From positions 1-43,197 of the forward strand of contig JANXMQ010000203.1 in the NCBI GenBank assembly GCA_025354565.1: a stretch of DNA of 43,197 bases. The letters are read 5' to 3'. Made by a program: the position numbers and the translations under genes. Below are positions 6,185 through 30,705 of this stretch, in pieces. Origin of the DNA: Akkermansiaceae bacterium (GTDB lineage Bacteria; Verrucomicrobiota; Verrucomicrobiia; Verrucomicrobiales; Akkermansiaceae). Under the pieces are notes generated by a model. The model ran no database searches. It was not told the DNA's origin and was given only the letters and a program-made list of their open reading frames with translations. How positions within the stretch are numbered: the stretch's first letter is position 1; every line of letters starts with the position of its first letter.

Positions 6185-6197
6185 TACTTATCAACCG

Positions 6198-7094
6198 ATG
6201 CTCGTCGCCAACAATCTCTACAAAAAGTTCGGCGGCAAACCCGCACTCGATGATGTTTCCTTCCACGTCCAGCGCGGGGAAATCTACGGGCTGTTAGGTC
6301 ATAACGGCGCGGGAAAAAGCACCTCGCTCGGGATTATCCTCGGCATGGTCATGCCGGACGCCGGGGATGTCAGCATTGGCGGAGTCTCCGTACTCAAGAA
6401 TCGCGCACAGGCTTTGCGAAAAGTCGGGGCCATCTTTGAAGCCCCTGCGTTTTACGAATATCTCAGTGGCTGGGATAACCTGAAAATCCTCATGGGTTAT
6501 TCCACCGGCTTCGATGCCGCCGCCGCCCGTGTCGTGGTCGAGCGCGTTGGATTGACCAAACGGATTGCCTCGAAAGTCCGCACCTACAGCCACGGCATGC
6601 GCCAGCGACTCGCCCTCGCCCAAGCCCTGCTGCCCGAACCGGAAGTCTTGCTGCTGGACGAACCAACCGACGGCCTCGACCCGGAGGGTATCAAGTGGTT
6701 CCGCGAATTCATCCTCACCCTTCGCGACGAACGCGGGATGACTGTGTTGTTCAACTCGCATCTGTTAGCCGAGGTCGAACTGATGTGCGATCGCGTGGCC
6801 ATCCTCCGCGAGGGACGGCGGGTGTTCGAGGGCAGCGCCGGCGGACTCCAACATGACACGCCAGTTTTCGAGGTCGATCTCGCGCCATGGGACAGCGCCT
6901 GCGGACTCATCCACAGCGCGGGCGGCGAGATTCTATCAGCTAACAGGATCAGCCTGCCACATGCCCTCGATCCGGCTTTGTTAGTTGAAACTCTGGTGCG
7001 TGCTGGCGTCCGCGTCCGTGCCTTTGCCCCGGTCCGCCGCTCGCTGGAAGATCTCTACATGGAGATTCACAACGGCGCAGCGTCTCCAAATTGA
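6198..7094 (+). CDS. ABC transporter ATP-binding protein
   Basis: This 298-residue ATPase has Walker A GHNGAGKST (about residue 34), signature YSHGMRQRLALAQAL and Walker B LLLDEPTDGLDPEG, with the H-loop in NSHLLAE. The organisation matches the CcmA/NatA-type ATPases that pair with separate ABC-2 permeases, including a C-terminal extension of about 80 residues. No permease follows, so the partner must be elsewhere or be the unrelated membrane protein upstream. It starts 13 bases after the pseudopilin stop. Its last 28 bases overlap the end of the convergent ABC gene on the other strand. Confidence 0.9.
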   Translation: MLVANNLYKKFGGKPALDDVSFHVQRGEIYGLLGHNGAGKSTSLGIILGMVMPDAGDVSIGGVSVLKNRAQALRKVGAIFEAPAFYEYLSGWDNLKILMGYSTGFDAAAARVVVERVGLTKRIASKVRTYSHGMRQRLALAQALLPEPEVLLLDEPTDGLDPEGIKWFREFILTLRDERGMTVLFNSHLLAEVELMCDRVAILREGRRVFEGSAGGLQHDTPVFEVDLAPWDSACGLIHSAGGEILSANRISLPHALDPALLVETLVRAGVRVRAFAPVRRSLEDLYMEIHNGAASPN

Positions 7095-8839
7095 GCGGGA
7101 ACGACGTCCTCGATTTTCCACGAACCGGAGCGATCTAACAACAAAAGCCGGTCATGATAGGGAATCAAGGTTGTGCGATGTCCCACGCTGATGAAGCCGA
7201 TGCCGGAAGTCTTAATTTGCTGGTATAACTGCTCCTGATTTTCCTCATCCAGCGCACTCGTCGCCTCGTCGAGAAAGGCGAATTTTGGTTGCCGCAAAAA
7301 CAATCGGGCGAAGGCGACTCGTTGTTGCTCGCCGAGTGAGAGCATGTTATTCCAATCCACCACTCGTTTCAGGTCGCCGTCCACACGCTCCAACACATCG
7401 GATAGATTGACGGCCTCCACGACCGCGAGAATCTCCTCGTCGGTGGCTCCGCGGTCGGGGTACGGATAGAGCAATTGATCCCGCAAGCAGCCTTCCACCA
7501 TATACGGTCGCTGGGGGAGAAACATGAGTTGATCTGCTGCCGGACGTTCGAGCAAACCGCAGGCTCCAGGCCACAGACCGGCGATGGTGCGGAGAACGGA
7601 ACTCTTGCCGGTGCCGCTGGCTCCCATAATGATAAGACTTTGATTGATCTTGAGTTCGAGCGACAACTTTTCCACCAGCGTTTTCATAACCACCGGGGTG
7701 CAAATGGTGAGTTCATCGAGCTTTACGATCTGGCTGTTTTCCTCCGGCTTGTTAGCGGCTTCAGAGGTTATCCGTTGTTCCTCCGCATCGTGCTCGTCAA
7801 GTTGGTCCCACAAGCTGCCGAGACGCTGGACTCCCGCCAGATAGGCACTCAGGCCGCCGAATTGCATGATGATTAGCGAGATCGCTGTTAGCACGGTCCG
7901 GAATGCGTCAGCCGCTTGGGTGACCACGCCGAATTCCACCTGCCCGCGCATATACATCGGCGCGACGACGGCAACCGGCAAGACGAGGGCGAGGTAATTG
8001 TAGCTGTTGGTGAAAAACGCGAGATTCCGGTTGCGGATGATGATGATCCGCATGTTGGCCACCGCTGCGGTTAGACGGTTGAAAAGATCCAGATGCTCGC
8101 GTTTTTCCCCCCGATAGAAAGCGATCGACTCCGCGTTGTCTCGCACTCGGACTAGGCTGTAACGGAAGTCCGCCTCCTTTTCATATTGATGGTAATGCAA
8201 TCTAACGAGCTTGCGGCCAATGACGATACTGATGGCGGTGCCGGCGATGGCATAGATCACCATGATCGCGACGAGGGTGCCTGAAATCAGCCACAGCACG
8301 CCGATAAAGCTGACCAGCGTCACCACCGAGTTCAGCGCAATCAACAGGAACGACAGCGAGCTGGTAGTGAAGTTTCTAACATCCTCACTGATCCGCTGGT
8401 CCGGGTTGTCCACGCTTTCCGAGCCGCGCAGGCGGAAGTAGGCGCGGTTGTTGAAATAGCGTTTCACCAGATGCTGCGCCATCCATTCCCGCCACAGCAG
8501 GGCCAGCCGCTCCTCGACCCAGCGATAGTAAACACCGATGGGGATCGCGAGTAGGATCGTGCCGATATATTTCCAAAGCGTGTCCCAAAAGGCTCCCTGA
8601 TTTTTGTCAGTGATAGCCGTTATGAAATGGGCCGCAGCATAGCTCATGAGCACTTGCACCGCTCCCGTGGCGAGGGAGAGAAGCAGCAAGGCGATGAGGA
8701 ATCCACGCGCCTTGCGCCGGCGTTCCGAAGCGAAAAATGCCTTGGAAATGACCCAGAATTGGCGGCTGGTGGTTTTCCACGTTTCGCGGTCGGCTACCGG
8801 GTCGGATGCCACTGCGGGAGGGATGTCGGTTTTTTCCAC
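7067..8839 (-). CDS. ABC transporter, fused permease and ATP-binding (SbmA/YddA-like)
   Basis: A 590-residue half-transporter: about 330 residues of membrane domain (helices visible from ALLLLSLATGAVQVLMSY onward) followed by a nucleotide-binding domain. The segment LRGSESVDNPDQRISEDVRNF is diagnostic of the SbmA/BacA, YddA and ABCD-like family. Walker A is GASGTGKSS, the signature is LSLGEQQRVAFARL, and Walker B is FAFLDEATSALDEE. It should work as a homodimer in the inner membrane. Related proteins handle peptides, vitamin B12-type cofactors or very-long-chain acyl groups, so the substrate is open. It converges on and overlaps the preceding ABC gene by 28 bases. Confidence 0.9.
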   Translation of the reverse strand: MEKTDIPPAVASDPVADRETWKTTSRQFWVISKAFFASERRRKARGFLIALLLLSLATGAVQVLMSYAAAHFITAITDKNQGAFWDTLWKYIGTILLAIPIGVYYRWVEERLALLWREWMAQHLVKRYFNNRAYFRLRGSESVDNPDQRISEDVRNFTTSSLSFLLIALNSVVTLVSFIGVLWLISGTLVAIMVIYAIAGTAISIVIGRKLVRLHYHQYEKEADFRYSLVRVRDNAESIAFYRGEKREHLDLFNRLTAAVANMRIIIIRNRNLAFFTNSYNYLALVLPVAVVAPMYMRGQVEFGVVTQAADAFRTVLTAISLIIMQFGGLSAYLAGVQRLGSLWDQLDEHDAEEQRITSEAANKPEENSQIVKLDELTICTPVVMKTLVEKLSLELKINQSLIIMGASGTGKSSVLRTIAGLWPGACGLLERPAADQLMFLPQRPYMVEGCLRDQLLYPYPDRGATDEEILAVVEAVNLSDVLERVDGDLKRVVDWNNMLSLGEQQRVAFARLFLRQPKFAFLDEATSALDEENQEQLYQQIKTSGIGFISVGHRTTLIPYHDRLLLLDRSGSWKIEDVVPAQFGDAAPL

Positions 8840-8913: not shown

Positions 8914-9702
8914 TCATATCGGGATGCCTGCGAGGAAGGGGTTGCCTAGCAGCTCCTCGCCGAGGGTGGTGGCGGGGCCGTGGCCGGGGAGGAGGATGGT
9001 GTGATCGGGCAAATCTGATAGAACGTCCCGCAGGCGGGCCAGCGCGTGCTGATAGAGCGCGGGGGTGCCGCAGCCGCCCATGGAGCCAGCGAAAAGGGCG
9101 TCGCCAGTGACGAGAACTGGCAGGGCGAGTCCGTCGATTTGATAGCCGAGTGCCGGATTGGCGTGGCCGGATAGATCGCAGGCGCGGAGGGTAAGCGGGC
9201 CGAACTGGAGCGAATCGCCTGGCTTCATGGTGCGGGTGTTTTCGATCTGGCAAGCGTATGGGATGATCCCTGCGGCGCGGAAGGTGGAGATGCCGCCGAT
9301 GTGGTCCGGGTGGGCGTGGGTGATGAAAATTTCCGCAGGCAGGGGACCGTTGAGCGCGGCGCGGCAAGCGGTGAGGTCGTAGCCGGTATCGAAAAGGATC
9401 GTGATGTCGGGCGTGTGGATGAGCCAAGCGTTCACCCGTTCTTGGCCAAAGGGGAGGTCGAGCCGCTGGACTTCCGATAGAGTGAGCGGCTGCGGCAGAT
9501 GGGTGGGGTGATTTGCCAGCGCCGCGGGATTCAAGCCGAGGGCATTGGCGAGGCGGCGGGCGGTATCGGGCGAGAATTTTCCCCGTGAAAAAGCGAGGAC
9601 TTCGGATTCAGGCAGTCCGGCTCGCGTGGCGACCGCGGCTGGGGCAAGGTCGTGGCCTTTGAGAGCCTTGCGCAGGACCCAAGTGAAATCGTCTTCGAGC
9701 AT
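8914..9702 (-). CDS. MBL-fold metallohydrolase with N-terminal HTH
   Basis: This 262-residue protein joins two modules. Residues about 1-60 form an XRE-like helix-turn-helix (AAVATRAGLPESEVLAFSRG, then TARRLANALGLNPAAL). Residues about 75-262 are a metallo-beta-lactamase fold with the zinc motif HAHPDHIGG, a second histidine in DLSGHANPALGY, an Asp in VTGDALF and a final His in LLPGHGP. Stand-alone members are glyoxalase II-like or lactonase-like hydrolases. The HTH fusion suggests DNA binding coupled to a metabolite, which is an inference. The frame is open to 9906, but the conserved protein begins at MLEDDFTWVL (9702). It lies 38 bases after the GT9 gene on the same strand. Confidence 0.85.
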   Translation of the reverse strand: MLEDDFTWVLRKALKGHDLAPAAVATRAGLPESEVLAFSRGKFSPDTARRLANALGLNPAALANHPTHLPQPLTLSEVQRLDLPFGQERVNAWLIHTPDITILFDTGYDLTACRAALNGPLPAEIFITHAHPDHIGGISTFRAAGIIPYACQIENTRTMKPGDSLQFGPLTLRACDLSGHANPALGYQIDGLALPVLVTGDALFAGSMGGCGTPALYQHALARLRDVLSDLPDHTILLPGHGPATTLGEELLGNPFLAGIPI

Positions 9703-9740
9703 GGTGATTGGGGGTGGGTATGCAGATGTTGTTAGAATAT

Positions 9741-10694
9741 CTAGCGGGCGAATTGTGCTAGTTTCTCGCGCACCGTTTGCCAGACTCGCTCGCTGTCCAG
9801 CTCGCGTTGGCAGCGCAGGTCCAAGGGGCATTTCGGCAGCAGGCAGGGCGCGCATTCCACATGCCGCCGGACGACAGCGTGGCGACGTCCGAGCGGGCGT
9901 TTCCAAGCTGGGTCATTCGGGCCGAAAAGAGTAATGCAGGTAGCCCCGGCCATGGCTGCCAGGTGCGGCAACGAGCCATCCGCTGCGATGACCAAGGCGT
10001 GGACTGCCAGCAAGGGCATGGCACCGGCGAGCGGAGAAGCGTGAAAAAAGCCGTTATGATTGCCCAATTGATCCGTGAGAAGTTTTGCGAGGCCGCGGCC
10101 ACCATCGACGCTGGCAACGGTCACTCGGCAACCGCAAGCGGTGAGTTTTTCCGCGATTTCCATCCACCTCTCAAGCGGCCATTCGTGACTCGCGCCGAAG
10201 TCCGAACCGGGACACAGCAGGACAGCGCCAGCCACCGGCGCGATGCAGAGGTCAAAGGGGGCGAAAAATTCCGGGACTGCGGTCGGGATACCCATCTCCT
10301 CGACGGCAGCCAGATAGTGTCTGACCCGGTGCTCTAACGGACCCGGTCGGCTTGCGAGCGGATGGGTGAGAAATTTCCGCAGTTTTGCGTCATCGGGACC
10401 GAGCCGCCTGGGAATGCTCGCCGCTTTGAAAGCCTCTGCAGCGAGACCTGGGTCCCACGCCAGCGAGGCCTGCCAATTTCCGCGGATGCCCGCTGCTACG
10501 GCCCGTGCATTCGATTTCAGGGGGATGTCGATCACTGTTAGTCCAGCCACTGATGTCCAGAAATCCCGTTGCGCGGCCATGCACAAAATCCCCACGCCCA
10601 GACCGGAGGCCACCAGCGCCCGCACCGCAGGCACGGCGAAGCAGGCCTCGTCCCAGCGTTCCGGCCCGGCCACCAGCATTCCTCCAGCGTTCAT
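9741..10694 (-). CDS. Glycosyltransferase family 9 (ADP-heptose:LPS heptosyltransferase-like)
   Basis: A 317-residue protein with the GT9 double Rossmann layout. The N-terminal domain has WDEACFAVPAVRAL. The C-terminal half has LLCPGSDFGASHEWPLERW and then VIAADGSLPHLAAMAGATCITLFGPNDP, the donor-binding signature of the heptosyltransferases WaaC, WaaF and WaaQ. A cysteine cluster, CAPCLLPKCPLDLRC, near the C-terminus is also common in this family. The role would be sugar addition to the lipopolysaccharide core at the cytoplasmic face of the inner membrane; acceptor and donor are not predictable. ATG at 10694 is preferred over the in-frame GTG at 10700. Confidence 0.87.
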   Translation of the reverse strand: MNAGGMLVAGPERWDEACFAVPAVRALVASGLGVGILCMAAQRDFWTSVAGLTVIDIPLKSNARAVAAGIRGNWQASLAWDPGLAAEAFKAASIPRRLGPDDAKLRKFLTHPLASRPGPLEHRVRHYLAAVEEMGIPTAVPEFFAPFDLCIAPVAGAVLLCPGSDFGASHEWPLERWMEIAEKLTACGCRVTVASVDGGRGLAKLLTDQLGNHNGFFHASPLAGAMPLLAVHALVIAADGSLPHLAAMAGATCITLFGPNDPAWKRPLGRRHAVVRRHVECAPCLLPKCPLDLRCQRELDSERVWQTVREKLAQFAR

Positions 10695-10801
10695 CGTCAC
10701 CCGCCGACCCTAACGCCCTTGTATCCTCGCGGAAATAGCAAAGTGGCGAGCGGCATCAGTTCAATCGGCTGGCGGGAACGCTTGAAACTTCGCGCGTCCG
10801 G

Positions 10802-11554
10802 ATGGATGCTTCCGGGGTGTCCGCGCCACTATCAGAAATCCCGCCACGGGGCATCGCTTGGTTTGATCTGGATGGGACCTTGATCGCGTGGGATTGCCAG
10901 TTGTTATTCCGGCACTTCGTCCTCCGCCGCGAGCCATGGCGGGGGCTGTTTCTCCCGGTCTTCCTCGCGTTTGTGCCATTAGCCGGGCTGCTAGGAGCGG
11001 CGGGTCTGAAGCGGGTTTTTCTCTGCTACCTGTGGCGGATGGATGCCGCGACGGTGGTTGAGTATTCGCGTGAATTCGCCGCAGAGGTGATGCCCGCGAT
11101 CTATCCGGAACTGCGGGAAAAACTCGAACAGCATCGCCGCGCGGGGGATTTCCTCATCTTGGCCTCGGCGAGTCCGGAGTTCTACGTGGCGGAAATCGGG
11201 CGCGAGCTGGGATTTGATCTAACACTCGGCACCCCGGTCGAGCTTGGCCCGTTTTTCCCGGACTTGGAAAATCACAAGGGCCACGCGAAAGTGGTGCGCT
11301 TGCGGCAAGTACTACCTGCGTCGTACTTTGCGGGCGGCAAACTCATCCACAGTCACGGCTACACCGACAGCCGCGCGGATTTGCCGATGTTAGAGTTGTG
11401 CGCCAAGGCGACGGTGGTGAATCCATCCCCGGCGCTGACGGCCGACGCCGAGGCAGCGGGTTGGGAATTCGTCCGGCCCGCACGGCCATGGAAATCGCGG
11501 GGAGGCTTCGCCGTGAGGGCGCTGGGCATGCTGTTAGGATGCGGGCGATTTTGA
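10802..11554 (+). CDS. HAD-IB family phosphatase (SerB-like)
   Basis: A 250-residue haloacid dehalogenase-type hydrolase. Motif I is WFDLDGTLIAWD (nucleophile and acid/base Asp, about residues 22-24), motif II is the Ser of LASASPEFY, and motif IV is GYTDSRADLPML. This is the pattern of the subfamily IB enzymes that includes phosphoserine phosphatase and the PlsC-linked phosphatases. A hydrophobic stretch (LFLPVFLAFVPLAGLLGAAG) in the cap region suggests membrane association. The substrate cannot be assigned. It is divergent from the GT9 gene, with about 107 bases between them. Confidence 0.85.
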   Translation: MDASGVSAPLSEIPPRGIAWFDLDGTLIAWDCQLLFRHFVLRREPWRGLFLPVFLAFVPLAGLLGAAGLKRVFLCYLWRMDAATVVEYSREFAAEVMPAIYPELREKLEQHRRAGDFLILASASPEFYVAEIGRELGFDLTLGTPVELGPFFPDLENHKGHAKVVRLRQVLPASYFAGGKLIHSHGYTDSRADLPMLELCAKATVVNPSPALTADAEAAGWEFVRPARPWKSRGGFAVRALGMLLGCGRF

Positions 11555-11586
11555 AAACCGACCGCGCGTCTCCAGTGGGCAAATTT

Positions 11587-12051
11587 TTAAAGTTCGATCT
11601 GAAAAAAATCCCGCATCACCTCACGATACACGTCGCGCTTGAAAGCGGGCAACCAGTCGAGGTCGAATTCGATCGGCAGAATCCAGCGGTAAGCGCGGAA
11701 TTCCCGTTGCTTCTGATTCACGTTCACCTGCGGTGCGTCTGATTTCAGACGGCAGAGGAAATACGTCTGCTCCTGGCCATGACTGCCGTGCTTGCGCAGT
11801 TTTTTCCCGCGCGCGTGCTCCGGGTAGAGGTAGCGATACCCCTCGCGGCGGGCCACCACTTCATAATGTTTCGCCTCCAGACCCACCTCCTCACGCACCT
11901 CGCGATGCAGGGCCTGCTCGGGAGTTTCACCCGAATCGACACCGCCTTGCGGAAATTGCCATGCGCCGGGTATCGTCCAACGTTCGCAAATCAGCAGGTT
12001 GCCTGCCGAATTCACGACCAATGCGGCGACGTTTGGACGGTAACTTACCAC
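11587..12051 (-). CDS. rppH: RppH-like NUDIX hydrolase (RNA pyrophosphohydrolase family)
   Basis: This 154-residue protein has a complete NUDIX box: GGVDSGETPEQAL followed by HREVREEVGL, that is G-x5-E-x7-REVxEExGL, which binds the catalytic Mg2+. The N-terminus YRPNVAALVVN and the WQFPQGG block match RppH, which removes pyrophosphate from the 5' end of triphosphorylated RNA to start decay. A diadenosine-tetraphosphate hydrolase is the other possibility, since the two share this architecture. It converges on the HAD gene, with 32 bases between the stops. Confidence 0.85.
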   Translation of the reverse strand: MVSYRPNVAALVVNSAGNLLICERWTIPGAWQFPQGGVDSGETPEQALHREVREEVGLEAKHYEVVARREGYRYLYPEHARGKKLRKHGSHGQEQTYFLCRLKSDAPQVNVNQKQREFRAYRWILPIEFDLDWLPAFKRDVYREVMRDFFQIEL

Positions 12052-12193
12052 AGGGGGAAGATGCGCTCATGCATCCCTGCTGACAATCCTTAACTTTTCC
12101 TGATTTTAATGCCGCTTGCGCTTGGTAAATATTTTTCACCCGAAACCATCGCCGGGGCTGGCCAACCGGGCGGGAAGGTGCCATACTACTCGC

Positions 12194-12751
12194 ATGTTGA
12201 AGAAAACCTTGTTTCTTGCCCTATCAACCATCCTCGCCTGCGTGGCCCAATTGCCAGCCCAGAACGCCACTGGCACGGACACCACCGCAGCCGATGGCAC
12301 CACGACTCCCGCCAAAACCAATGACACCCAGGTCCCTAACCATTTCTGGCAAGCCACTCTGCCGGGTGGCCACTACATGGTCTCGCTCGATCGGATCACC
12401 GCCGTTAGCCGCGCTAAGTATGTGCTGGATGGGGCCGTGATCGTCGATGAAGTCACCGTGGACACCGTCGGTCAGGCGCTGGCCCGCTTCTATTTCATCA
12501 GCCCCATCACCGATGCCACTTCGAACACCACCCTCAGCGGACTCGCCGCGCATGGCCGCGAACTGATCGACAAGGTCGCCGCCCAAACCGGGACGGAGGT
12601 GCAAAATATGGTGGTCAAGAAATACCCGGAAACCACCCACGCCAAGTGCATCGAGTATCGCATCCTGTCCGAGGAGGACTTGGGCGCATTACTCGGCAGC
12701 GTCACCACGGCATGGCAAACCGGCAAGGGCCGACAATTCACCTCGAAGTGA
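12194..12751 (+). CDS. Hypothetical exported protein
   Basis: A 185-residue protein of unknown function. MLKKTLFLALSTILACVAQLPAQ is a clear Sec signal peptide with cleavage expected after LPAQ or the preceding Ala. It is followed by a Thr/Ala-rich linker and a domain beginning NHFWQATLPGGHYMVSLDRITAV. No lipobox is present, so the mature protein should be periplasmic or secreted. The frame is open upstream to 12116, but the ATG at 12194 starts the signal peptide. It is divergent from the RppH-like gene across 142 bases and lies 49 bases before the IscU-like gene. Confidence 0.75.
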   Translation: MLKKTLFLALSTILACVAQLPAQNATGTDTTAADGTTTPAKTNDTQVPNHFWQATLPGGHYMVSLDRITAVSRAKYVLDGAVIVDEVTVDTVGQALARFYFISPITDATSNTTLSGLAAHGRELIDKVAAQTGTEVQNMVVKKYPETTHAKCIEYRILSEEDLGALLGSVTTAWQTGKGRQFTSK

Positions 12752-12800
12752 GCGTGGCTTGCAATGCCGCCCGCCAAGGCGCATGATCCTGCCAGCAATC

Positions 12801-19883: not shown

Positions 19884-22268
19884 TCACCCCGCCGCCTCAT
19901 ACACACTCGTCCCCCTATCTGGATACTTCTCCAGCACATGCTGAAACAGTACGCCGCACTTCTGCTCATAAAGCTCCGCGGTGAATTTCTCCGGCAATCC
20001 GGAATCCAGCATCTTCTCGATCTCCACCTTCACCGCCGCGCGGGTCGTGCGCTTGTTCCGCCAAGATAGAACCAGCAGCTCGGTCTTCAATTTTGCCAGC
20101 AAATCGCGGCAGACCTTTTTGATCGCTTCCGTTTCCACCGGTGTTAGATCCGGGCCGGGCCGGGTGAGGATGTCGAACACCGCCAGCTCTTCCTCGCTCA
20201 CCGCTTCGCGCAAATGGCGCTGCTCCTCTTCGTTCAGATCCTTGGTCAGCGTGACGAGTTCCGCGAACAACTGCTCGATGCTCAGCGCGCCGCTGTTATA
20301 TGCCTCGATCATCTTCTGGAACCGGTCGAGGAAATCGTAGCGGCTCGCGTTCAGGCGGATCAGGTTGTCCAACTTGCGCTCGATCAAGGCCCGCAGTTGC
20401 TGTGCCTCGATGTTCTTCACGTTGCTCTTGGCAAACTTCCGCTCCAGCACTTCGAAGTCGATCTTGCTCAGATCAATCGTCTTCGCCGCCGCTCCCGGTT
20501 GTTTGAGCGCTTCGGTCACAATCGATGCATCCAGCACGCCAGAAATCTTCGCCATTACCTCCGTGATGTTCACCGGATCCTTCGTCGCCCGCACCGCTTT
20601 CGCTAGCTCGGCGATCACCTGCGCCTTCGGGGCTAACAAAGGAATCACCGGGTCAGGCATCACCGCTTTGTAGAGCCGTGCCACATCGTTCGCCTGACCG
20701 AGGAAAGAATCCATCACCTCGTCCGTGCGCGTGAGCTGGTTCACGGCGGGAATGAAAAGCTGGTTGGTCGCGTTGGTAATGGCCGCGAGATTCACGTTCT
20801 GCTTCCGGCAATATTCCGCCGCCTGCTCCAGCGCGATCCGCAGGGCTTCCACCAGTTCCTTCTTGTCCTTCACCGGCATCTCGCCGCCGCTGGTGCCGGA
20901 CCCGTAGATGGTCAATGCCTTTTCCAGCTCCTGGAAAACATTCGCATAGTCCACGATCAGGCCGTTCACCTTCTCGCCATGCACCCGGTTGGCGCGGGCG
21001 ATGGTTTGCATCAGCGTGTGGCCGCGCATCGGCTTGTCCAGATAGAGCGTGGAGCAGCTCGGCGCATCGAAGCCCGTCAGCCACATCGCGCAGACGAAGA
21101 CCAGCCGGAAGGGATCGGCGGGATTCTTAAACTTCTCCTCCAGGTCCTCCTTCACCATCCGCTCGCGATGCGGCAGGATGTCGAAGCCCTTATCCTTCAT
21201 CTCGGAAATCTCGTTCTGCCCCGGCGAGACGACCACCGCCATGTCCGTCTCCTGCAGATTGACCAGCCGCGCGTGCAGCGTGGCGAAATCCGGATGACCG
21301 CCCGCCATCCCTTCCAGCGCCTTCAACACGCGGGCCTTCTCCGCCTCCCACTCCGCGCGGACTTTTTCAACCATCCGCAGCGTCGTCAGCTTGTCGATGG
21401 AAACGACCATCGCTTTGCCCTGATAGCCGCGGTTCAGGAAATGATGAACGATGTCCTTCGCCACCGCATCCAGCCGGTCCTCGCGGGTGATCAGGTGATA
21501 ACGCTGGCCCAGCACTTTCCGCAGCTTCTCTTCCTGATCCTCGTCCAGCCCGGCGTCCTCGATCGTTTGATAGATCTCCTCGTTCAGCTCCGGGTTGGTG
21601 ATTTGCAGTTCCGGCGTCCGGTTCTCGTAGAACAGCGGCACCGTCGCCCCGTCCTCCACCGACTGCCTGAAATTATAGACACTCACGTAATCGCCGAAGA
21701 CCTCGCGCGTCCGTTCCTCTCCGGCGATCAACGGTGTGCCGGTGAAGGCCACGAACTTCGCGTTCGGCAGCGCGGTGCGCATGTTCATCGCCAGCGTGTC
21801 GTATTGGCTGCGGTGCGCCTCGTCCGTCAGCACGATGATGTCATCCCGCTCCGACAGCACCGGATGCAGCGTCCCCGGATCCTTGCGGAACTTGTGGATC
21901 AGTGTGAACACATAGCGGTGATCCGCGCGCAGCAGTGTCTCCAGCGAGATCCCCGCCACGTCCTCCTCGCTCGTCGCCTTCTTCCAATCGCCGAAATGCT
22001 CCCACTCCGCCGTCAGGCTGCCGATCTTGCTCTGCACCCCGTTAGAGACCAACAGCAGCGCGTTGTAGTGGAAAAGCTGCGGGATCGTCTGCTTGTAATC
22101 GTGGAGGTTCTTGTCAAATCCCTCGCGCACGTTCACGCCCGGCTTCTTCAGCTCGATCAACACCAGAGGCAGGCCGTTCACGAAGCCCACCAAATCCGTC
22201 CGTCTCAAATACAGCTCGCCCGCCACCCAGAACTGCGACCCCAGCAGGAAATCATTGTTCTCCGGCAC
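19884..22268 (-). CDS. hsdR: Type I restriction subunit R, main part, inactivated (hsdR)
   Basis: HsdR is the ATP-driven translocase and nuclease of type I systems. This 794-residue piece has the nuclease motif LVLIELKKPG, motif II VLTDEAHRSQYD, motif III AFTGTPLIAGEERTREVF and motifs V/VI (WLTGFDAPS, then QTIARANRVHGEK), plus the C-terminal helical region. Two lesions are visible. First, it continues in frame the 123-residue ORF upstream, interrupted only by TGA at 22272-22274 where the family has Trp (VVD-stop-EVPENNDF versus VIDW.NPENNDF). Second, SLETLLR joins directly to ADHRYVFTLIHKF, so the usual segment of about 120-130 residues with Walker A (QGSGKS) and motif Ia is absent. The listed GTG start is merely the first start codon after the stop. 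Restriction activity is very unlikely. Confidence 0.88.
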   Translation of the reverse strand: MPENNDFLLGSQFWVAGELYLRRTDLVGFVNGLPLVLIELKKPGVNVREGFDKNLHDYKQTIPQLFHYNALLLVSNGVQSKIGSLTAEWEHFGDWKKATSEEDVAGISLETLLRADHRYVFTLIHKFRKDPGTLHPVLSERDDIIVLTDEAHRSQYDTLAMNMRTALPNAKFVAFTGTPLIAGEERTREVFGDYVSVYNFRQSVEDGATVPLFYENRTPELQITNPELNEEIYQTIEDAGLDEDQEEKLRKVLGQRYHLITREDRLDAVAKDIVHHFLNRGYQGKAMVVSIDKLTTLRMVEKVRAEWEAEKARVLKALEGMAGGHPDFATLHARLVNLQETDMAVVVSPGQNEISEMKDKGFDILPHRERMVKEDLEEKFKNPADPFRLVFVCAMWLTGFDAPSCSTLYLDKPMRGHTLMQTIARANRVHGEKVNGLIVDYANVFQELEKALTIYGSGTSGGEMPVKDKKELVEALRIALEQAAEYCRKQNVNLAAITNATNQLFIPAVNQLTRTDEVMDSFLGQANDVARLYKAVMPDPVIPLLAPKAQVIAELAKAVRATKDPVNITEVMAKISGVLDASIVTEALKQPGAAAKTIDLSKIDFEVLERKFAKSNVKNIEAQQLRALIERKLDNLIRLNASRYDFLDRFQKMIEAYNSGALSIEQLFAELVTLTKDLNEEEQRHLREAVSEEELAVFDILTRPGPDLTPVETEAIKKVCRDLLAKLKTELLVLSWRNKRTTRAAVKVEIEKMLDSGLPEKFTAELYEQKCGVLFQHVLEKYPDRGTSVYEAAG

Positions 22269-22271
22269 CTC

Positions 22272-22643
22272 TCAATCGACCACACGCACCACTTCCACTC
22301 GCTGCTCGCCGTGCTCTGGATCGGGAAACGAAACTTTCACGCCCTGCTTGAGCAGCTTGTCGATCTCCCGGTTCGCCTCCGCCAGACTCAACGCCGTGCG
22401 ATCCCGGCAAATCTCCTCCACCGCTCCCTCAATCGCCTCCACCGGCAAATCCGGATTCATCCGACGGAGCGCCGACTTCAGTCGGCCCGTGAGAACCACC
22501 TCCCGCTTTCCGTCACGCCCCAGCGCGCTCACCCCGCCATCCCATTCGCCGTAACAATTCACCACGTCCCAACCCAGCTCATCCCGCATGAGCTGGATCG
22601 CCGGTTGTTCGACGAGGTGGTCTTCGGTGTAGGAGTTAGACAT
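22272..22643 (-). CDS. Type I restriction subunit R, N-terminal fragment
   Basis: A 123-residue ORF beginning MSNSYTEDHLVEQPAIQLM, the normal start of an HsdR, and running through TGRLKSALRRMNPDLP and ANREIDKLL to RVEVVRVVD, where TGA replaces the conserved Trp codon. The next codons are in the same frame and continue the protein, so this is the N-terminal piece of a split hsdR. It starts four bases after the abiEii stop at 22648, so the toxin-antitoxin pair has been placed directly in front of hsdR within the operon. Confidence 0.85.
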   Translation of the reverse strand: MSNSYTEDHLVEQPAIQLMRDELGWDVVNCYGEWDGGVSALGRDGKREVVLTGRLKSALRRMNPDLPVEAIEGAVEEICRDRTALSLAEANREIDKLLKQGVKVSFPDPEHGEQRVEVVRVVD

Positions 22644-22647
22644 AGTT

Positions 22648-23475
22648 TCACGAATTGATCAGCGCCTGAGCCACTGTTACCAAGTCTTCGCGCAATCGGA
22701 TAGTTGATTTCAGGTTGGCCCGTGGCCCCAAGTAGAAAGAGGCAGCGAGCGTCGGCCCCGGAGCTTCGGGATGCGTGAAGTGCTGTTCCAGAGTTTTCAT
22801 CGCAAGCGCCAGCCCGGCGTTCTCTTTCCGTTTCTCCTCGCCGAAAGCCGTCACCACCTGCTCAGGCCCGTCCACGCACGACCGAACCAGCGAAAGGACG
22901 TCGTAAGCGTCCTTTCCCCGTTTCACCCCGTTCCGCTGGGCAAAGGCATTGATCTTCAGAACCAAAAGCGGGCCATAGTTACAAAACGGAATGTGGAACG
23001 TGCGAAAATCTCCAAGATGGTCGCGGCCGCTTACCTCCCGCTTGATGGGTTCACACAGCGCACGGTTGATTCCCGGGTAGATGGATGCATGGAGATCACT
23101 TACATTCCGGGTGCCAGTGGTCGCCGGATGGTGCTCGGTCAGGAAGTCGAGAAAGAGTTTCCCGTGTTCCGTTTCGAGATACATCCGACCTTCTTCAGTT
23201 TCCTGAAATCCAGCCAGAGCCAAGGCAAACGCCGCTGGAGCAGCCATTCCCGCATCAGCCGCAAGCGTGATCCCGAAATCAACGTCCAGTGTTGGCGTCG
23301 GTCGGTAGAGGGGATTCACCTGATGCTGTGTGTGGAAGTAGATGGCCAGACCTCCCACCACCGCGAGTTCGGAGTGGTAGTTCTCCAAGGCCGACCACGC
23401 CGTGACCAGCGCGGCGCTGGCCGACACCACGCCGTGGGCGGGATACTCATCGAATTGTGACGGTTGCAAGCTCAT
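22648..23475 (-). CDS. AbiEii-like nucleotidyltransferase (type IV toxin candidate)
   Basis: A 275-residue protein with a nucleotidyltransferase core: VVGGLAIYFH provides the GG motif and TPTLDVDFGI the DxD metal-binding pair. KINAFAQRNGVKRGKDAYDV matches the later Lys/Asp block of AbiEii-type proteins. In AbiE modules this protein is the toxin, acting by nucleotide transfer onto RNA. Its ATG overlaps the stop of the AbiEi-like gene (ATGA), the standard arrangement. The GTG at 23481 is a less likely start. It lies immediately upstream of hsdR, inside the type I operon. Confidence 0.8.
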   Translation of the reverse strand: MSLQPSQFDEYPAHGVVSASAALVTAWSALENYHSELAVVGGLAIYFHTQHQVNPLYRPTPTLDVDFGITLAADAGMAAPAAFALALAGFQETEEGRMYLETEHGKLFLDFLTEHHPATTGTRNVSDLHASIYPGINRALCEPIKREVSGRDHLGDFRTFHIPFCNYGPLLVLKINAFAQRNGVKRGKDAYDVLSLVRSCVDGPEQVVTAFGEEKRKENAGLALAMKTLEQHFTHPEAPGPTLAASFYLGPRANLKSTIRLREDLVTVAQALINS

Positions 23476-24626
23476 GCCCACCCCCCATTGAAGTCTTGCC
23501 GCTCGCGCAGCACAGAAGCCTGCTCTTCGCCGTTCGGTTCACCCCCTTGGAGATCCAGAAATAGCTGGAGATCCGATACAACGGTGAATTCAGGGTGCCC
23601 CTTCACGTGCTGCCGTCCGATATCCACGGACAGGTAATCGCTGGGCACCAAGATGCGGAGATTCCCCGCTCCACGCGAAACGGGCCGGGCCTGCAGAAAC
23701 GGCAGGAGTTCACTCTCATCAGGAAACTGGTCCAGATATGCGGAAACCACCGTCGGCACGTTGTGCGGGGCCCGAAGCCAGGCACCGAAGTTCAGGGTGA
23801 ACAATGGCTCCTTGTCCGACAGCGAATTTCCGGCCCCACAGAAACTCAAGAGGTTACCTGCAAGCGTGAAGTCGGAGGCAAGGGTGGAGTATTCCCGCAC
23901 CTGAACGCGTGGGGAAAAATCATCCTCTCGCAACCAATCCCGCAAAATAGCCTGCGCACCCGCAGCCCCCTTGATCCGGATGCCCTCCTTGCTGTCCTCA
24001 CCCAGATCCTGATCGAGCAGCACCTGCCGGACTTTGCTCACCAAGCCGAGGCTCACCCCGGCCTCTGCCGACAGTTCCTCCACCTTGTGAGGCCGCAAGG
24101 GTCCTTGGAGCAGCACTCGCAGGATGCGGGATGCCTTGGGCGAATACAGGGACTTCAATCTGCGCTCCTCTTTGTACTTCCGCGGCAGGCTCCGCCGCTC
24201 TACCCAGATCCCTCCAAACTCCAACTCGCAGTTCCCGCCAAGGTCCAGCCAACCGATCCCCTCCTGCTGGCAAATCGCGGCAACCGAATCGGAAATATAC
24301 GGAGCAATCAGCAACGGATAAATGGGAACGCCTCGTTCGTCTTGCGGCGGATTCCGCTTCAAATTCCAAATCGCCTGCCGCGCCTCGCGTGGATGAACTA
24401 CCGATTTGATGATCGCCCGCAGTTGCCATACCTTTCCGCGAGCCGCCAGATTTCCTTTCTCAACTCGGAGGTTGAAGGACAAATGGTAGCTTCGGTCAGA
24501 GGGCGGCCCACTTTCGCGACCGACCCATTGGTGCTCCAGAATTTCACCCGCTCTCCCGAGCGTCTTCTGCATCGTCGCAAGCGCTTCTTCACGAAGGGCT
24601 GAAGGGGCTGGCAGCAGTTTCACCAT
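23472..24626 (-). CDS. AbiEi-like antitoxin and transcriptional regulator
   Basis: A 384-residue protein of the AbiEi family. The first half contains YPLLIAPYISDSVAAIC and GIGWLDLGGNCELEF, the conserved block of this group. It is followed near residue 165 by a winged helix (SKASRILRVLL-type, then LSAEAGVSLGLVSKVRQVLL as recognition region) and a long C-terminal domain. Characterised AbiEi proteins neutralise AbiEii and repress their own promoter by binding inverted repeats. Three such repeats lie at 24685-24826, upstream of this start. The gene overlaps the AbiEii-like gene by four bases. Confidence 0.8.
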   Translation of the reverse strand: MVKLLPAPSALREEALATMQKTLGRAGEILEHQWVGRESGPPSDRSYHLSFNLRVEKGNLAARGKVWQLRAIIKSVVHPREARQAIWNLKRNPPQDERGVPIYPLLIAPYISDSVAAICQQEGIGWLDLGGNCELEFGGIWVERRSLPRKYKEERRLKSLYSPKASRILRVLLQGPLRPHKVEELSAEAGVSLGLVSKVRQVLLDQDLGEDSKEGIRIKGAAGAQAILRDWLREDDFSPRVQVREYSTLASDFTLAGNLLSFCGAGNSLSDKEPLFTLNFGAWLRAPHNVPTVVSAYLDQFPDESELLPFLQARPVSRGAGNLRILVPSDYLSVDIGRQHVKGHPEFTVVSDLQLFLDLQGGEPNGEEQASVLRERQDFNGGWA

Positions 24627-24930: not shown

Positions 24931-26637
24931 TCATAAGGGAAACTTCCAAACCGTGGTTGCTAGCCTGGCCAGTCTTTTCTGACGCTCATTAATCATCCCG
25001 GGATTCCATTCCGTCGAGGCCGCGAGTTCTTTCGTTAGCCCATACTGGCTTGTTTCGAAAGCCACCACTTTATCGGCGAACGGCTGCTGACCGATCCCCT
25101 TGTTCTTCCCGTGTTCCAGCAGAGCGTAGTTGCCGAGCCGTTCCACGTAGCGGTCGTGTTCGTCCTCCGAGAAAATCGTCGCCCAATGATCATTCAAATG
25201 ATCGGGAAGGATGTGCTCAATTGTCGCGCTTGCGGTGTTCCAGCTCAAATCGTGCCCGGAGTATTGGCGCTCAAGCTCGCAAAGAATATAGCGGACGATT
25301 TTCTTTCCCTTGCTGCTGACGGACTGGCGGAAAACCTCGAAATCCGCTCGAAACTGGTCGTCATCCACATAGACCGCTTGCAGCAAGCCACGAACGCCGG
25401 ACGCCTTGCTCACCGTGCCGTTTTGCAATCCTAGCGCGGCCTCGTTGAAGCGCTTTTCCAGTTCGTGCGTCCCAAGCCGACTGATCACATTGAACCGGAA
25501 CGAAAGGGTCACGCAGTCTTTGAGAACCTTCACCGCCTCGTCACCATTGAGCTTTCGAAATGCAGCCAGCGCGAGAGGCTTGTATTGACTCACGCCGAAC
25601 AACACCAAGGCACGGACCTGCTCCGCAGCCCCGGGGAAATCGAGCCAAAATTCATCCTCCGCGTCTCCAAGTGCCCGATAGCAAACCGAGGCCCGTTCCA
25701 AATCACGGACCAGCTCCATCGCACCCTCCGCCGACGTAACCTGCTCTCGAATTCGGCGGAAAAGCCTCTCCTGCCGGACAAACGGATAGTGTGAATTGAA
25801 GTAGTGCCTCAGAAACTCCGGCAGGCGCCTTACACCAATCTGGCTAGTCACCCGTTGCCAGCGCTTAAGTACGTGTTCGAGATCGCCCTTGCCTTTTTTG
25901 GACACGAGCGACATCAAATAGTTCTTAATGAGATCACTCGCGGTCAGTTCCAGACCGCGTGCGTTGAGCGTCTCGAAAACCGTGTAAGCTCCCATATCAT
26001 CCTCCACCACCACCTGGATGAAGAGCAGCCGTACCGAGACGAGTGCATCGATCCACTCCGCCAGCTGCTGTCCGTTGTATTGCGAAAACTCTTCAGCGAT
26101 GCATTTCGAGAAATACTTGAATGCTCCCCAGAGTTGCTTTTCGGAGTCTCCCAGCGAGCGCACGCTGGCGGGCTTCTCCAACTGCACCAGTGTGCCTTGA
26201 TAGAAATCGTCGTCATTCCGATTGAGCGTGAGCTTACTCGCCTCCACTAGGGAACCGGGCTGCTTCGCCCCGATGAAACTGCCCCGCAACAGTGCCGCCC
26301 GCTCCCGGTTCGCTTCCGGTTCGACACCCGCATCCGCCAGTCCCCGCAACCGGGCGATCACACACAAAATGAGAATGCTCAAGGTCGCAATCCGCTGCTG
26401 GCCGTCGATGATCGTGTATTCCTCGGGATTGTCGTTCTGCATGAGAACCAGCGATCCCATGTAATGCTGCAATGACCGCTTAGTCGTGAGATCCTGCAAA
26501 TCTAGCCAAAGATCCTCCCAGTGCTCTTCCTTCCAAGAGTAATCCCGTTGAAACGAGGGCACGCGGTAAGATCTCCCGTTTCCAAGTAGATTCTTGAGAT
26601 TCGGGGTACTGGTGGCGAGAAGGTTTGAAGCGGCCAT
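24931..26637 (-). CDS. DUF262/DUF1524 protein (GmrSD-like) inside the restriction operon
   Basis: A 568-residue protein with the DUF262 signature in its N-terminus: VPSFQRDYSW (about residues 26-35) and IIDGQQRIATL (about 76-86), a ParB/Srx-like fold used as an NTPase. The C-terminal DUF1524 domain has the HNH-type start IEHILPDHL (about residue 475) and later LGNYALLEHGKN. The same pair forms GmrSD, a type IV enzyme that cuts glucosylated-hydroxymethylcytosine DNA. Related proteins are often carried inside type I operons, as here between hsdS and the abiE genes. Both active-site regions look intact. It starts 51 bases after the hsdS stop. Confidence 0.88.
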   Translation of the reverse strand: MAASNLLATSTPNLKNLLGNGRSYRVPSFQRDYSWKEEHWEDLWLDLQDLTTKRSLQHYMGSLVLMQNDNPEEYTIIDGQQRIATLSILILCVIARLRGLADAGVEPEANRERAALLRGSFIGAKQPGSLVEASKLTLNRNDDDFYQGTLVQLEKPASVRSLGDSEKQLWGAFKYFSKCIAEEFSQYNGQQLAEWIDALVSVRLLFIQVVVEDDMGAYTVFETLNARGLELTASDLIKNYLMSLVSKKGKGDLEHVLKRWQRVTSQIGVRRLPEFLRHYFNSHYPFVRQERLFRRIREQVTSAEGAMELVRDLERASVCYRALGDAEDEFWLDFPGAAEQVRALVLFGVSQYKPLALAAFRKLNGDEAVKVLKDCVTLSFRFNVISRLGTHELEKRFNEAALGLQNGTVSKASGVRGLLQAVYVDDDQFRADFEVFRQSVSSKGKKIVRYILCELERQYSGHDLSWNTASATIEHILPDHLNDHWATIFSEDEHDRYVERLGNYALLEHGKNKGIGQQPFADKVVAFETSQYGLTKELAASTEWNPGMINERQKRLARLATTVWKFPL

Positions 26638-26688: not shown

Positions 26689-27930
26689 TCAACCGCCCGA
26701 AAGTAGCTTCGGCAGCAGCAGGTCGCGGGTGCGGCGGAGGATTTGGTTGCGGCGCTGGAGGTTTGCCAATTGGGCCGCAGTTCCATCAAAGAACGCCCCG
26801 GCCAATTCTCTGATCTTTTGGTGCGGCACTAGAATCTCAACCTCTCGCAAGGCGGCTTGACGGATGCCACGAACTGTCGTTCCGGTTGCCCTATTTTGAA
26901 GGCGGGCTTGTCCCTGTTGTGAAATCAACGAATAGAAAAGCAAGGCTGCGGAAATCATCTTAGGATTGGCTCTGAGAGCGAACAAACGCTGGCTCAGACA
27001 ATACCGCGTATCGTCGGGCAATAAGTAGCATTCACCCAAGGGCGCTTCTGATGTCAGCAAAATATCGTGCCGCTTTAGCGGAGTCTTCATCCACTTCGAG
27101 TAGAGTTCTTCGCTAAGGGTTTTGGCCTGATCCATTTTGATCAGGTGGCCCGTTTTTACATTGAGCGCAGATAACGCGACAATCCCCTCATCGCTCCAGT
27201 CACCACCCAGCTTCTTCGGCGTCTTGCCGCGGCAATCGAGAATCACTTCTGTCAATTCATCCAACGTCTTCACCTCCCAACCCTTGGGAATCTGGCCGAT
27301 TGCGGAGTCCACAAACTTTGCGGATTCGTGGCCGGGGAACCGGAAGTTGACGAACCACTCGCGGTAGAGGGATTGCGCCATCTTCTCAAGGATCTTGATG
27401 CGGCGCAGGTTGTTCGCGATCAGGTCGTCGTAGGCCGAGAGGATGCCCGCGATCTTGCGTTGGGTGGGGAGGTCGGGGACGTTGAAGTCAAACGACATTA
27501 GTTTCTCAACACTCATGTTGTCCTGAGTCGTGCCGCGAGAAATACTCTGCATTCCGATCTTCAGGATATCGATGTAATATTTGATAAACCTCACGTCCGC
27601 CTTTTCGGGATCGGGAACGAATCCAACTACGCTATCCGGAAAACAGCCTGGAATGCCGAGTATCGCCGTTTCTGCGATATTTGCCGCGATCGTAATGCAA
27701 AGCGTCCCCTTGTCCCACATCTTACTTTGAACCAGTCCGGCTTCACTGTAGGTCTGAGAGTATTCTGTCAGATAAAGGTTCGCGGCCTTGATGTCGCCAG
27801 TTTGAAAGAACGGATACTCGCCCCCATAAAGCGACGCGTCATATCGAGGACGATGGCGCGAACGTCCCCGACTCACAAAACCGAGTTCGTCGAGGCGTGT
27901 TGTTTTTGTTGGGCGAGCAAGGGCCTTCAT
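26689..27930 (-). CDS. hsdS: Type I specificity subunit S
   Basis: A 413-residue protein with the usual tandem arrangement: target recognition domain 1 (residues about 10-140), a conserved helix with IPDLP-like VPDLPTQRKIAGILSAYDDL, target recognition domain 2 starting at IGQIPKGWEVKTLDEL (about residue 213), and a second helix with LVPHQKIRELAGAFFDG and LRRTRDLLLPKLLSG. It sets the DNA sequence methylated by the HsdM complex; the sequence itself cannot be read from this. The ATG at 27930 is two bases after the stop of the 75-residue ORF. The region GCATGA around this start is part of a 62-bp duplication shared with the hsdM/dinD junction. Confidence 0.92.
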   Translation of the reverse strand: MKALARPTKTTRLDELGFVSRGRSRHRPRYDASLYGGEYPFFQTGDIKAANLYLTEYSQTYSEAGLVQSKMWDKGTLCITIAANIAETAILGIPGCFPDSVVGFVPDPEKADVRFIKYYIDILKIGMQSISRGTTQDNMSVEKLMSFDFNVPDLPTQRKIAGILSAYDDLIANNLRRIKILEKMAQSLYREWFVNFRFPGHESAKFVDSAIGQIPKGWEVKTLDELTEVILDCRGKTPKKLGGDWSDEGIVALSALNVKTGHLIKMDQAKTLSEELYSKWMKTPLKRHDILLTSEAPLGECYLLPDDTRYCLSQRLFALRANPKMISAALLFYSLISQQGQARLQNRATGTTVRGIRQAALREVEILVPHQKIRELAGAFFDGTAAQLANLQRRNQILRRTRDLLLPKLLSGG

Positions 27931-27989: not shown

Positions 27990-28160
27990 GCACCTTTCCG
28001 AGCCCCCGGTTTGGACCATTTTGTTGACGCCAACAAAATGGTCTGCGAACCGCCTGCGGGGGACCATTTTCCTGACGTCAGGAAAATGGTGTTCAGATTC
28101 CACAAGCTGCTGAATTACAGCGATTCGGAATCCAGTAAGATTTGAAATTTCGAGACTCAT
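27933..28160 (-). CDS. Small ORF in the type I operon carrying two in-frame palindromes
   Basis: A 75-residue ORF whose ATG overlaps the dinD-like stop (ATGA) and whose TAA is two bases before the hsdS ATG, so it is placed like a translated operon member. It seems to be a composite. Residues 1-23 ([20 protein letters not shown]...) are unrecognised. Residues 24-49 are largely encoded by two palindromes and read [10 protein letters not shown] and [10 protein letters not shown]. Residues about 58-75 resemble the HsdM C-terminus. It may be a by-product of the insertion of the dinD cassette that keeps the operon translationally coupled. Confidence 0.5.
28014..28043. repeat. 30-bp hairpin, same family as in the dinD-like gene
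   Basis: Perfect 13-bp arms (GACCATTTTGTTG at 28014-28026 and its complement at 28031-28043) around ACGC. Read on the minus strand it is exactly ten codons, [10 protein letters not shown] (residues 40-49 of the small ORF). It matches the hairpin at 28802-28831 except for one base pair in the stem. Confidence 0.85.
28063..28090. repeat. Perfect 28-bp palindrome related to the neighbouring hairpins
   Basis: ACCATTTTCCTGAC (28063-28076) is followed directly by its reverse complement (28077-28090). It shares the CCATTTT outer arm with the 30-bp hairpins and, in the small ORF's frame, encodes HFPDVRKM, the same peptide pattern. Confidence 0.85.
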
Positions 28161-29023
28161 TCGGTCGATTTTGGAGTTGAGTCTCCCAGGTGTTCGGGTT
28201 TGGTGAGGACCTTTTTCTCGTCCGAGATCAGGCGGCGCTCGAGCTTTTTGACATCCTCGTCGGGCAACAGGGATTCCGGACGGATGCCGCGGTCGATGAG
28301 GGTTTGGCGGACGGCTTGGTTGTTGGTGACGTGCTCCTGCGAAATGGCGGCTTCGGTGCCGAGATTGCGTTCCCGGGCGTTGAAGATGGTGATTTCGGTG
28401 GCGAAGTCCTTGGCCTTGAGAATGATGGTGGGCGCGAAGTCGGCAAGCGGACGGCTGGCCGGGACTTTCCAATGGGCCTTCATGGCTTGGGTGGATTTGC
28501 CGAACAGGGCCTGGTCGCCCTTGCTGCGGATGAGGGCGAAATCCTCGTTGCCGCCGGTTTGCTCGAAGATGACGAAGGAGAGTTCCTTCTCGGTGGCACT
28601 TAGCTTTTTCCGGGCAAGGACGCGCTCGGCTTCGAGCAGGCGTTTCTCGATCAGCTCGGCCCGGCGGGTCTGGACGGCGAAGTAGGTCTGGGCGAAGGCG
28701 ATTTCCTCTTTCCTCGGATCGCCGTTCTGGGCGATGAGGTAGCAGGCGTAGCGGGTGAGCAGGATATCCTCGATTTCCCGCTCCGCGCCTTTGGCCAATT
28801 GGATCATTTTGTTGACGCCAACAAAATGATCGGTGACGGAGAAACCGGACACCTCGCAGGCGGTTTTCGCCTTGGAAATGGCGGACTGGTTGAAGTTCCG
28901 CCACTCGGCGTATCCGAGCAAATGCTGGATGTCCCGGGCGAGCCAGTATTCCACGCCGCCTTCGGTCTGCTGGGCGTGCGCTTCGAAGGTGGAGGTGAGG
29001 GATTGGATGATTTCGCTGTTCAT
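28157..29023 (-). CDS. DinD-like protein (DNA-damage-inducible protein D family)
   Basis: A 288-residue protein closely patterned on E. coli DinD (about 274 residues), which is SOS-induced and inhibits RecA-mediated strand exchange. The segment around residues 80-110, [20 protein letters not shown] then [20 protein letters not shown], is the family core. It is followed by a charged helical region, [14 protein letters not shown] and RPLADFAPT. Residues 65-74 ([10 protein letters not shown]) are encoded by a perfect 30-bp hairpin; as I recall it, E. coli DinD has DHF plus an equal-length stretch there, so no residues are inserted. ATG overlaps the hsdM TGA, and TGA overlaps the next ATG, so it is coupled into the type I operon. 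No LexA-type box was recognised. Confidence 0.87.
28802..28831. repeat. 30-bp hairpin inside the dinD-like gene
   Basis: Perfect 13-bp arms (GATCATTTTGTTG at 28802-28814 and its complement at 28819-28831) around ACGC, coinciding exactly with codons 65-74 of the dinD-like gene. The codon choice makes the stem perfect over its whole length. Confidence 0.9.
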
Positions 29024-30705
29024 GCTTCCAGGAGTTCGGTGACGTTTTCGGCGATCCTCGTTTCGAGTTCGCGCGCTTCGGCGTTGAGGACTTCGAGTTC
29101 CTCGTTGAGGGCTTCGAGCTGTTCCTTGAAATCCTCGTCGCTGAGGTCCTCGCCCTTGGCGACGCCGACGTAGCGGCCGGGATTGAGCGACCAGCCTTGG
29201 GCTTCGATTTCCTGAAGGGTGGCGGCTTTGCACAGGCCGGGGATGTCTTTGTAAAGGAGTGGGGACCTTACTGTCCCCTTCTTGGCAGACTTTGAAGAAA
29301 CGACAGTAAGGTCGTTGCTCCATATTTCGCGAAGCTTCGCTTCGGAGCCGTGGTGGAATTCGCAGGGCTCGCCGCGATAGAGGCGGACGACATTGGCGAG
29401 AAATTCGAGTTGGGCGTTGGTAAAATCGCGGTGGGCGCGGTCGAGCTGGCGGAAGATGTGGCGGGCGTCGAGGAAGAGGACTTTGTCCGCGCGGTCGGTG
29501 CTGGCCTTGCCCGTGTCGAAAAACCAGAGGGTGCAGGGCAGGGTGACGGTGAAGAAGAAATTCGGGCCGATGGCGACCATGACGTCCACATGACCGGCGC
29601 GGATGATTTTTTCCCGAATCTCCTGCTCGGAGGCGCGGGCATCGGCGGCGGAGTTCGCCATGACGAATCCGGCGCGGCCCTTTTTGTTCAGCGCGGAGTG
29701 GAAATGCTGGATCCAGAGGTAGTTGCCATTGTCGGTGCGCGGGATGCCGAAGGGGTAGCGCGGATCTCCGGCGAGGCGCTCCTTGTCGATCTTGCTGACA
29801 TTGAAGGGCGGATTCGCCAGCACGAAGTCGAAGCGGCCGACGGAGTCCTGGAGATCCTCGTAGTAGGTGTTCCCCTGTTTGACATCGCCGCTCAGCCCGT
29901 GGACGGCGAGGTTTAGCCGGGCGAGGCGGGCGGTATCGGTCACGCGCTCCTGGCCGTGGACCGAGATTTCCTTGATCGGATCGCCGCTGTATTTCTCCCC
30001 TCTACTTCTGGGAGAGGGGCCGGGGGTGAGGGTTCTGCTTGATTTGTGCGCCTCCACGAAGCGGGCGGACTGGATGAACATGCCGCCGGAGCCGCAGGCG
30101 GGATCGAGGATGCGGCCGTAGTAGGGCTCCAGAATTTCCACGATCAACCGGACGATGGAGGTGGGCGTGTAGAATTCCCGGCCCTTCTGGCCCTCGCTCA
30201 TGGCGAACTTGCCGAGGAAGTATTCGTAGATCAGGCCGAAGGTGTCGCCGCCCTTGTCCATGGAGATGGAGGCCATGGTCTTGAGCAAGGAGGAGAGCGT
30301 GCGGCTTTCGAGGATGTGGTAGCTCTTCGGCAGCACGTCGGCCAGGTCTGGGTTCTCCTTCTCGATGGCGCGCATCGCCTCGTTGACGGCCTGGCCGACA
30401 TTCGCGCCCTCCGGCAGGCTGAGCAGATGGGAGAAACGGGCCTCTTCCGGCAGAAAGACGACGCCCGCCGCGTGGTAATCGGCTGGGCCGGTCTTGCGGC
30501 GAGACCCCGGCTGCGGTTTCAGCCCCGCCTCGACAGCGGCGAATTTCACATCGGCATAGCGGAGGAAGATCAGCCCGAGCACGGTGGGCGAGTATTCGGA
30601 AGGCTTCAGATCCGCCCCGGCCCAGAGCATGTTGGCGGCGTCCCAGAGTTTTTTCTCAAGCTCGGCGTGGGAATCTTCGGAAGTAGCGGGTTCGGTCCAG
30701 TGCAT
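29020..30705 (-). CDS. hsdM: Type I DNA methyltransferase subunit M
   Basis: A 561-residue N6-adenine methyltransferase subunit. The N-terminal helical domain begins [21 protein letters not shown]. The SAM-binding motif I is [15 protein letters not shown] (about residue 200), motif IV is the catalytic NPPF in [11 protein letters not shown], and the C-terminal half carries the long helices that contact HsdS. Between motif I and SVHGQE is an extra stretch of about 20 residues, [17 protein letters not shown], encoded by a palindromic insert. It keeps the frame and lies in a surface loop position, so activity may survive. It is the first gene of the operon and overlaps the dinD-like gene by ATGA. 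Confidence 0.92.
29990..30045. repeat. Palindromic insert in frame within hsdM
   Basis: CCCCTCT (29997-30003) pairs with AGAGGGG (30013-30019) and is followed by a G-rich tract. The minus-strand translation [13 protein letters not shown] is a peptide I recognise from many unrelated bacterial proteins, where it comes from a dispersed GC-rich palindrome. It falls between the HsdM blocks [10 protein letters not shown] and SVHGQE, which normally lie closer together. Exact borders cannot be fixed without an alignment. Confidence 0.75.

Follow-up and report, generated by a model that had tools for sequence, protein, structure and literature searches.

The question raised by this locus is whether a type I restriction–modification (R-M) operon whose hsdR gene is broken in two places has lost restriction and, if so, whether it still methylates. 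The window, the whole stretch of 43 197 nucleotides that was analysed, is an entire contig (C45) of a draft genome of 257 contigs and 5.1 Mb that is 95% complete; its nearest named relatives are mostly metagenome genomes of Akkermansiaceae and other Verrucomicrobia. Pfam and PADLOC place hsdM, hsdS and hsdR in one locus (Table 1). This locus is very probably a type I R-M operon (hsdM, a dinD-like gene, hsdS, a GmrSD-type gene, an AbiE-like pair and hsdR) in which hsdR is a recent pseudogene with both a premature stop and a deletion. The hsdS gene is full length and appears intact. For comparison, 80 loci were fetched, 70 of which contain both flanks of the hsdR deletion junction; homologues of the AbiEii-like/AbiEi-like pair adjoin hsdR in L034, L035, L043 and L048. 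Near-perfect 30 bp palindromes of the GACCATTTTGTTGACGCCAACAAAATGGTC type lie between hsdS and the dinD-like gene (28014–28043 and 28062–28091) and within the dinD-like gene (28802–28831, coding for ten residues), and similar palindromes occur in L045, L048, L023 and L088. A short remnant resembling another HsdR family (2610–2723; 34 residues and then a stop) is found directly after a DUF2357/PD-(D/E)XK gene at 125–2542.

Table 1. Features of the type I R-M locus in the window, and comparison loci with DUF559 inside HsdR or HsdM
Feature	Position or loci	Strand	Basis or remark
hsdM, open frame, 561 aa	29020..30705	-	Pfam N6_Mtase and HsdM_N
HsdM codon 176, Arg instead of Gly ahead of E-F-Y-T-P	30178..30180	-	Gly in 42/42 relatives
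HsdM in-frame insert of 21 residues (222–242), from a palindromic repeat	29980..30042	-	alignment
dinD/Bro-N-like gene	28157..29023	-	PADLOC PDC-S13; scan used frame extended upstream
hsdS, two specificity domains	26689..27930	-	Methylase_S, two stretches; PADLOC Specificity_I, residues 8–412
GmrSD-type protein gene	24931..26637	-	PADLOC HEC-06, full length
AbiEi-like partner gene	23472..24626	-	named from position only; no match in Pfam or PADLOC
AbiEii-like nucleotidyltransferase gene	22648..23481	-	Pfam AbiEii, E = 4e-4, slightly under curated cut-off
hsdR, whole frame	22643 to 19884	-	translation: VVD-stop-EVPENNDF, then ISLETLLR joined to ADHRYVFTLIHKF
hsdR 5' fragment, 123 codons ahead of the stop, first half of HSDR_N	22275..22643	-	Pfam HSDR_N positions 2–101; translation
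In-frame TGA replacing conserved Trp codon	22272..22274	-	translation; alignment with relatives
Remaining hsdR frame, open from GTG, 794 aa: second half of HSDR_N, DEAH/TGTP motor motifs, C-terminal domain	19884..22268	-	
Join left by the deletion, within CTGCTGCG (LLR); 125 codons gone, Walker A and motif Ia among them	21928..21935	-	alignment with relatives
DUF559 inside HsdR/HsdM, part 1	L113 (=L032), L114 (=L033), L159 (=L044), L109–L112, L115, L116, L137–L139, L141, L142		
DUF559 inside HsdR/HsdM, part 2	L144, L145, L148, L157, L161–L163, L166–L169, L172, L173, L178		

The uninterrupted frame expected of a functional type I HsdR is broken by the TGA at codon 124. In alignments with L028, L031, L034 and L036 the stop replaces the Trp of V(V/I)DW(E/D)(V/A)PENNDF, and the codon is TGG in 64 of the 69 relatives that are readable at this position, the remaining five having F (four) or L (one). 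The stop splits the Pfam HSDR_N match into profile positions 2–101 before it and 107–197 after it, and would terminate translation within the nuclease domain. The HSDR_N nuclease core and the downstream motor motifs are recognizable, with matches to SWI2_SNF2 (positions 76–215), a T1R_D3-like region and T1RH-like_C. Recoding of the TGA as Trp or Sec is unlikely because hsdR itself terminates with TGA (19884–19886) and most relatives have TGG.

The second lesion removes a segment of the motor. Compared with L028, which has a frame of 1044 codons without stops, hsdR in the window is shorter by 125 codons (375 nt) that include HTQGSGKS and ITDRTELD; Walker A and motif Ia, both expected of a functional type I HsdR, are thus absent and the SWI2_SNF2 match starts only at profile position 76. 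All 70 relatives with both flanks retain the segment, with 369–858 extra nucleotides and an in-frame Walker A, and two of these relatives (L035 and L106) have a stop elsewhere in the hsdR frame. No Walker A was seen elsewhere in the whole translation of the window HsdR. A search of the draft genome for the lost segment gave no close copy, the best being five matches of 39–52% identity on four other contigs, mostly within other HsdR genes: on three of these contigs the HsdR matches reach beyond the segment, and on the fourth (C212) the HsdR match is weak. Relocation of Walker A was rejected on these grounds, and compensation in trans by another HsdR seems unlikely because the other HsdR matches in the genome are 24–55% identical and cover partial stretches only. 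Of 73 genomes in the genus, counting the one that contains the window, 20 gave an HsdR match at E ≤ 1e-50; as the 80-locus set draws on some of these genomes too, the two counts are not independent. Only the window's own match spans both query residues 1–80 and the far side of the join; the others that reach the far side start at residue 83 or later.

The left flank of the deleted segment in the relatives is CTGCTGCGC or nearly so and the right flank in L034 is CTGCTGCGG, while the window keeps a single CTGCTGCG at the junction. Deletion between two similar CTGCTGCG stretches would account for the loss of the ATP-binding part of the motor, and slippage may have been the mechanism. Homology of at least 8 bp occurs in 3.6e-5 to 4.9e-5 of all 300–450 bp deletion products of four intact relatives. 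In L028, one of the nearest relatives, the right flank (TTGCTGGGCGAG) fits the left flank less well, so that the 8 bp homology depends on a flank of the L034 type. An earlier note on this DNA had claimed two independent lesions in hsdR, a TGA in place of a Trp codon and an in-frame loss, between short similar sequences, of about 120–130 residues that include Walker A and motif Ia; the alignments with intact relatives and the whole translation bear out this description.

The gene looks recently lost, since, the lesions aside, its product conforms at every column that is invariant in the other sequences of a set of 62 HsdR proteins (the window's included); six codons around the join were omitted from this count. 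The pairwise dN/dS between the window and L028 is 0.155, within the range of 0.09–0.16 obtained for L028 against L029 (0.09), L031 and L032 (0.12–0.13) and L034 (0.16). In 12 relative-rate comparisons the window hsdR never showed a significant surplus of codons with amino-acid changes; seven leaned towards such a surplus (for example, 25 versus 15) and five did not. All three measures speak against long-standing decay.

No restriction activity is expected from the locus. Judging from the known biochemistry of HsdR, either lesion alone should abolish restriction, and the available part of one report describes impaired ATPase activity and translocation on mutation of the DEAD-box motifs of the R subunit (PMC3874165). 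The loss of restriction that had been proposed earlier is supported as an expectation for an HsdR with a stop and without its Walker A segment. The neighbouring genes should be unaffected because hsdR ends the run and the gene that follows is on the opposite strand.

The earlier note had also taken hsdM and hsdS to be intact, which agrees with the complete appearance of hsdS but is not established for hsdM. The SAM-binding and catalytic motifs of a type I methylase, DPACGSGG and NPPF, are both present in HsdM, whereas the Gly (or Ala) expected before [EV]-F/Y-F/Y-T-P is replaced by Arg176. The equivalent residue is Gly in three and Ala in one of the four solved methylases with printed alignments (of ten matched). 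We take the stretch around residue 176 to be part of the SAM-binding region (motif X). Among 41 HsdM sequences, Arg176 is the sole private departure of the window protein from otherwise invariant columns and the other sequences have 0–7 each, so by this alignment it is not an excess of departures, only a badly placed one. Continued methylation is in doubt because of this Arg; the methylase may be damaged too, and its activity should not be assumed. The palindrome-derived insert follows the DPACGSGG motif and is absent from seven other aligned HsdM loci. It was rejected as a window-specific lesion because L111 carries a similar insert at the same place, together with three more, one with DUF559; it is probably tolerated. 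The window insert is a DUF559-free form of the repeat that flanks DUF559 inserts.

Among the alternatives, the most durable is that the locus still methylates but no longer restricts (M+ R−) and is retained for its methylation or for the other defence genes it carries. The open hsdM and hsdS frames with their main motifs, the HsdM insert in common with L111 and the precedent for loss of hsdR alone in Staphylococcus aureus (PMC13216270, in the part available) make this plausible, and it is the Arg176 substitution, at a position held by Gly in all 42 relatives and by Gly or Ala in the four solved methylases, that leaves it somewhat short of probable in our judgement.

It is improbable that either or both of the lesions arose through errors of assembly or consensus, or stem from a minority strain, and that the hsdR of the population works. 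The lesions do stand out in a gene otherwise without decay, the window is one contig of a draft in 257 pieces, and consensus error or mixed strains could have contributed; the lesions are nevertheless of two different kinds, the remaining frame is open and an 8 bp repeat at the join should not be long enough to misdirect an ordinary short-read assembler. The related L035 operon likewise has several deletions, by decay or by assembly. In that operon (3438–7180 and 9626–12760), hsdM has lost about 138 codons in frame across the NPPF region, the GmrSD-type gene has two deletions and hsdR has a stop. Decay of this operon type is not unique to the window, as the L035 operon is also damaged.

A further possibility concerns DUF559 (PF04480), presumably a Vsr-like nuclease, which was sought in three overlapping Verrucomicrobiota samples (genus, 73 genomes; order, 386; phylum, 387). 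At E ≤ 1e-20 these gave 59 distinct copies, of which 28 lie within HsdR or HsdM frames (17 HsdR-type and 11 HsdM-type), 29 in open frames of 121–253 residues and one (L177) at the start of a frame that runs on into a T2SSK match; one copy (G032:C140) was left out of the inspection of host genes. In each of the 28, the frame that encodes DUF559 also matches Pfam families of HsdR or HsdM. By eye and Pfam, the frame runs past DUF559 into the host in 25, the exceptions being L115, which ends at a contig end, and L116 and L157, in which the host frame is left or a stop falls within DUF559. In L178 the insert adjoins a methylase domain of which most is missing, and L039 is a further such locus outside the 28. 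No interior DUF559 was seen in genes other than HsdR and HsdM among the 59 copies. Weaker matches in the genus (26 of 36 rows) form a separate group, most of which align with no more than the second half of the profile; those with a long frame that were inspected (L108 and L118) are helicase-like by eye.

The inserts are mostly bounded by repeat peptides (for example, LTPALSQGERE and one of 13 residues) that stem from inverted copies of ACCCTCACCCC..CCCTCTCCC, and their sites recur ahead of Walker A, between the motifs of the motor, within or following the nuclease domain, and in several loops of HsdM. The site just ahead of Walker A, occupied in L032, L033, L039, L044 and L172, falls within the segment that the window has lost. 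If a DUF559 nuclease cut at this site and short-homology repair closed the break, the observed deletion would result; it would then be a scar left by a mobile nuclease element resident in type I R-M genes. We consider this scar very unlikely, and a causal link between the site and the deletion is speculation. No paper on DUF559 inside R-M genes was found among the matches listed in the open-access literature on DUF559 or R-M gene inserts, and such in-frame repeat-flanked domains in HsdR and HsdM are less ordinary than the loss of hsdR itself.

Least credible of all is that the 794 residues read from GTG 22268 form a shortened HsdR that still works, such as a nuclease or scaffold without translocation: the GTG is only 3 nt past the stop, the VLIELKK, DEAH and TGTP motifs are kept and amino-acid erosion is slight, but the first half of HSDR_N and the ATP-binding loop are both lost, no well-spaced ribosome-binding site is seen by eye ahead of the GTG and no such form occurs among the 70 relatives that have both flanks.

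The reading that we prefer, a recent hsdR pseudogene in a type I R-M operon, can be set beside known systems. By sequence, the window HsdR matches EcoR124I-type HsdR (PDB 2w00 and others) in three stretches in the same order, corresponding to the nuclease, the motor and the C-terminal part of the motor; unlike 2w00, it is interrupted and lacks the Walker A/motif Ia segment. The window HsdM matches EcoR124II HsdM (7bst) across the methylase core and has Arg where 7bst has Gly. Short palindromic repeats within open reading frames, as in the HsdM insert, are described for REPs and Rickettsia palindromic elements in the available part of PMC3733652, where REPs are reported in replication and repair genes and the word 'restriction' is absent from the main text. 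For hsdR, the closest parallel comes from natural S. aureus strains that have lost hsdR and retained hsdM and hsdS; loss of function among complete genomes is given there as 4% for hsdR versus 0.2% for hsdM and 0.9% for hsdS (PMC13216270, in the part available). Since such loss is known in S. aureus, the window represents a known kind of gene loss, with hsdR function apparently gone and hsdM and hsdS kept; it differs in belonging to a Verrucomicrobiota draft genome, in combining two lesions with a possible HsdM defect and in being known from sequence alone. S. aureus cells that have lost hsdR are proposed in the same source to serve as gateways in gene transfer (PMC13216270), and the window hsdR would add a further natural case in which restriction is lost and the rest of the locus is kept.
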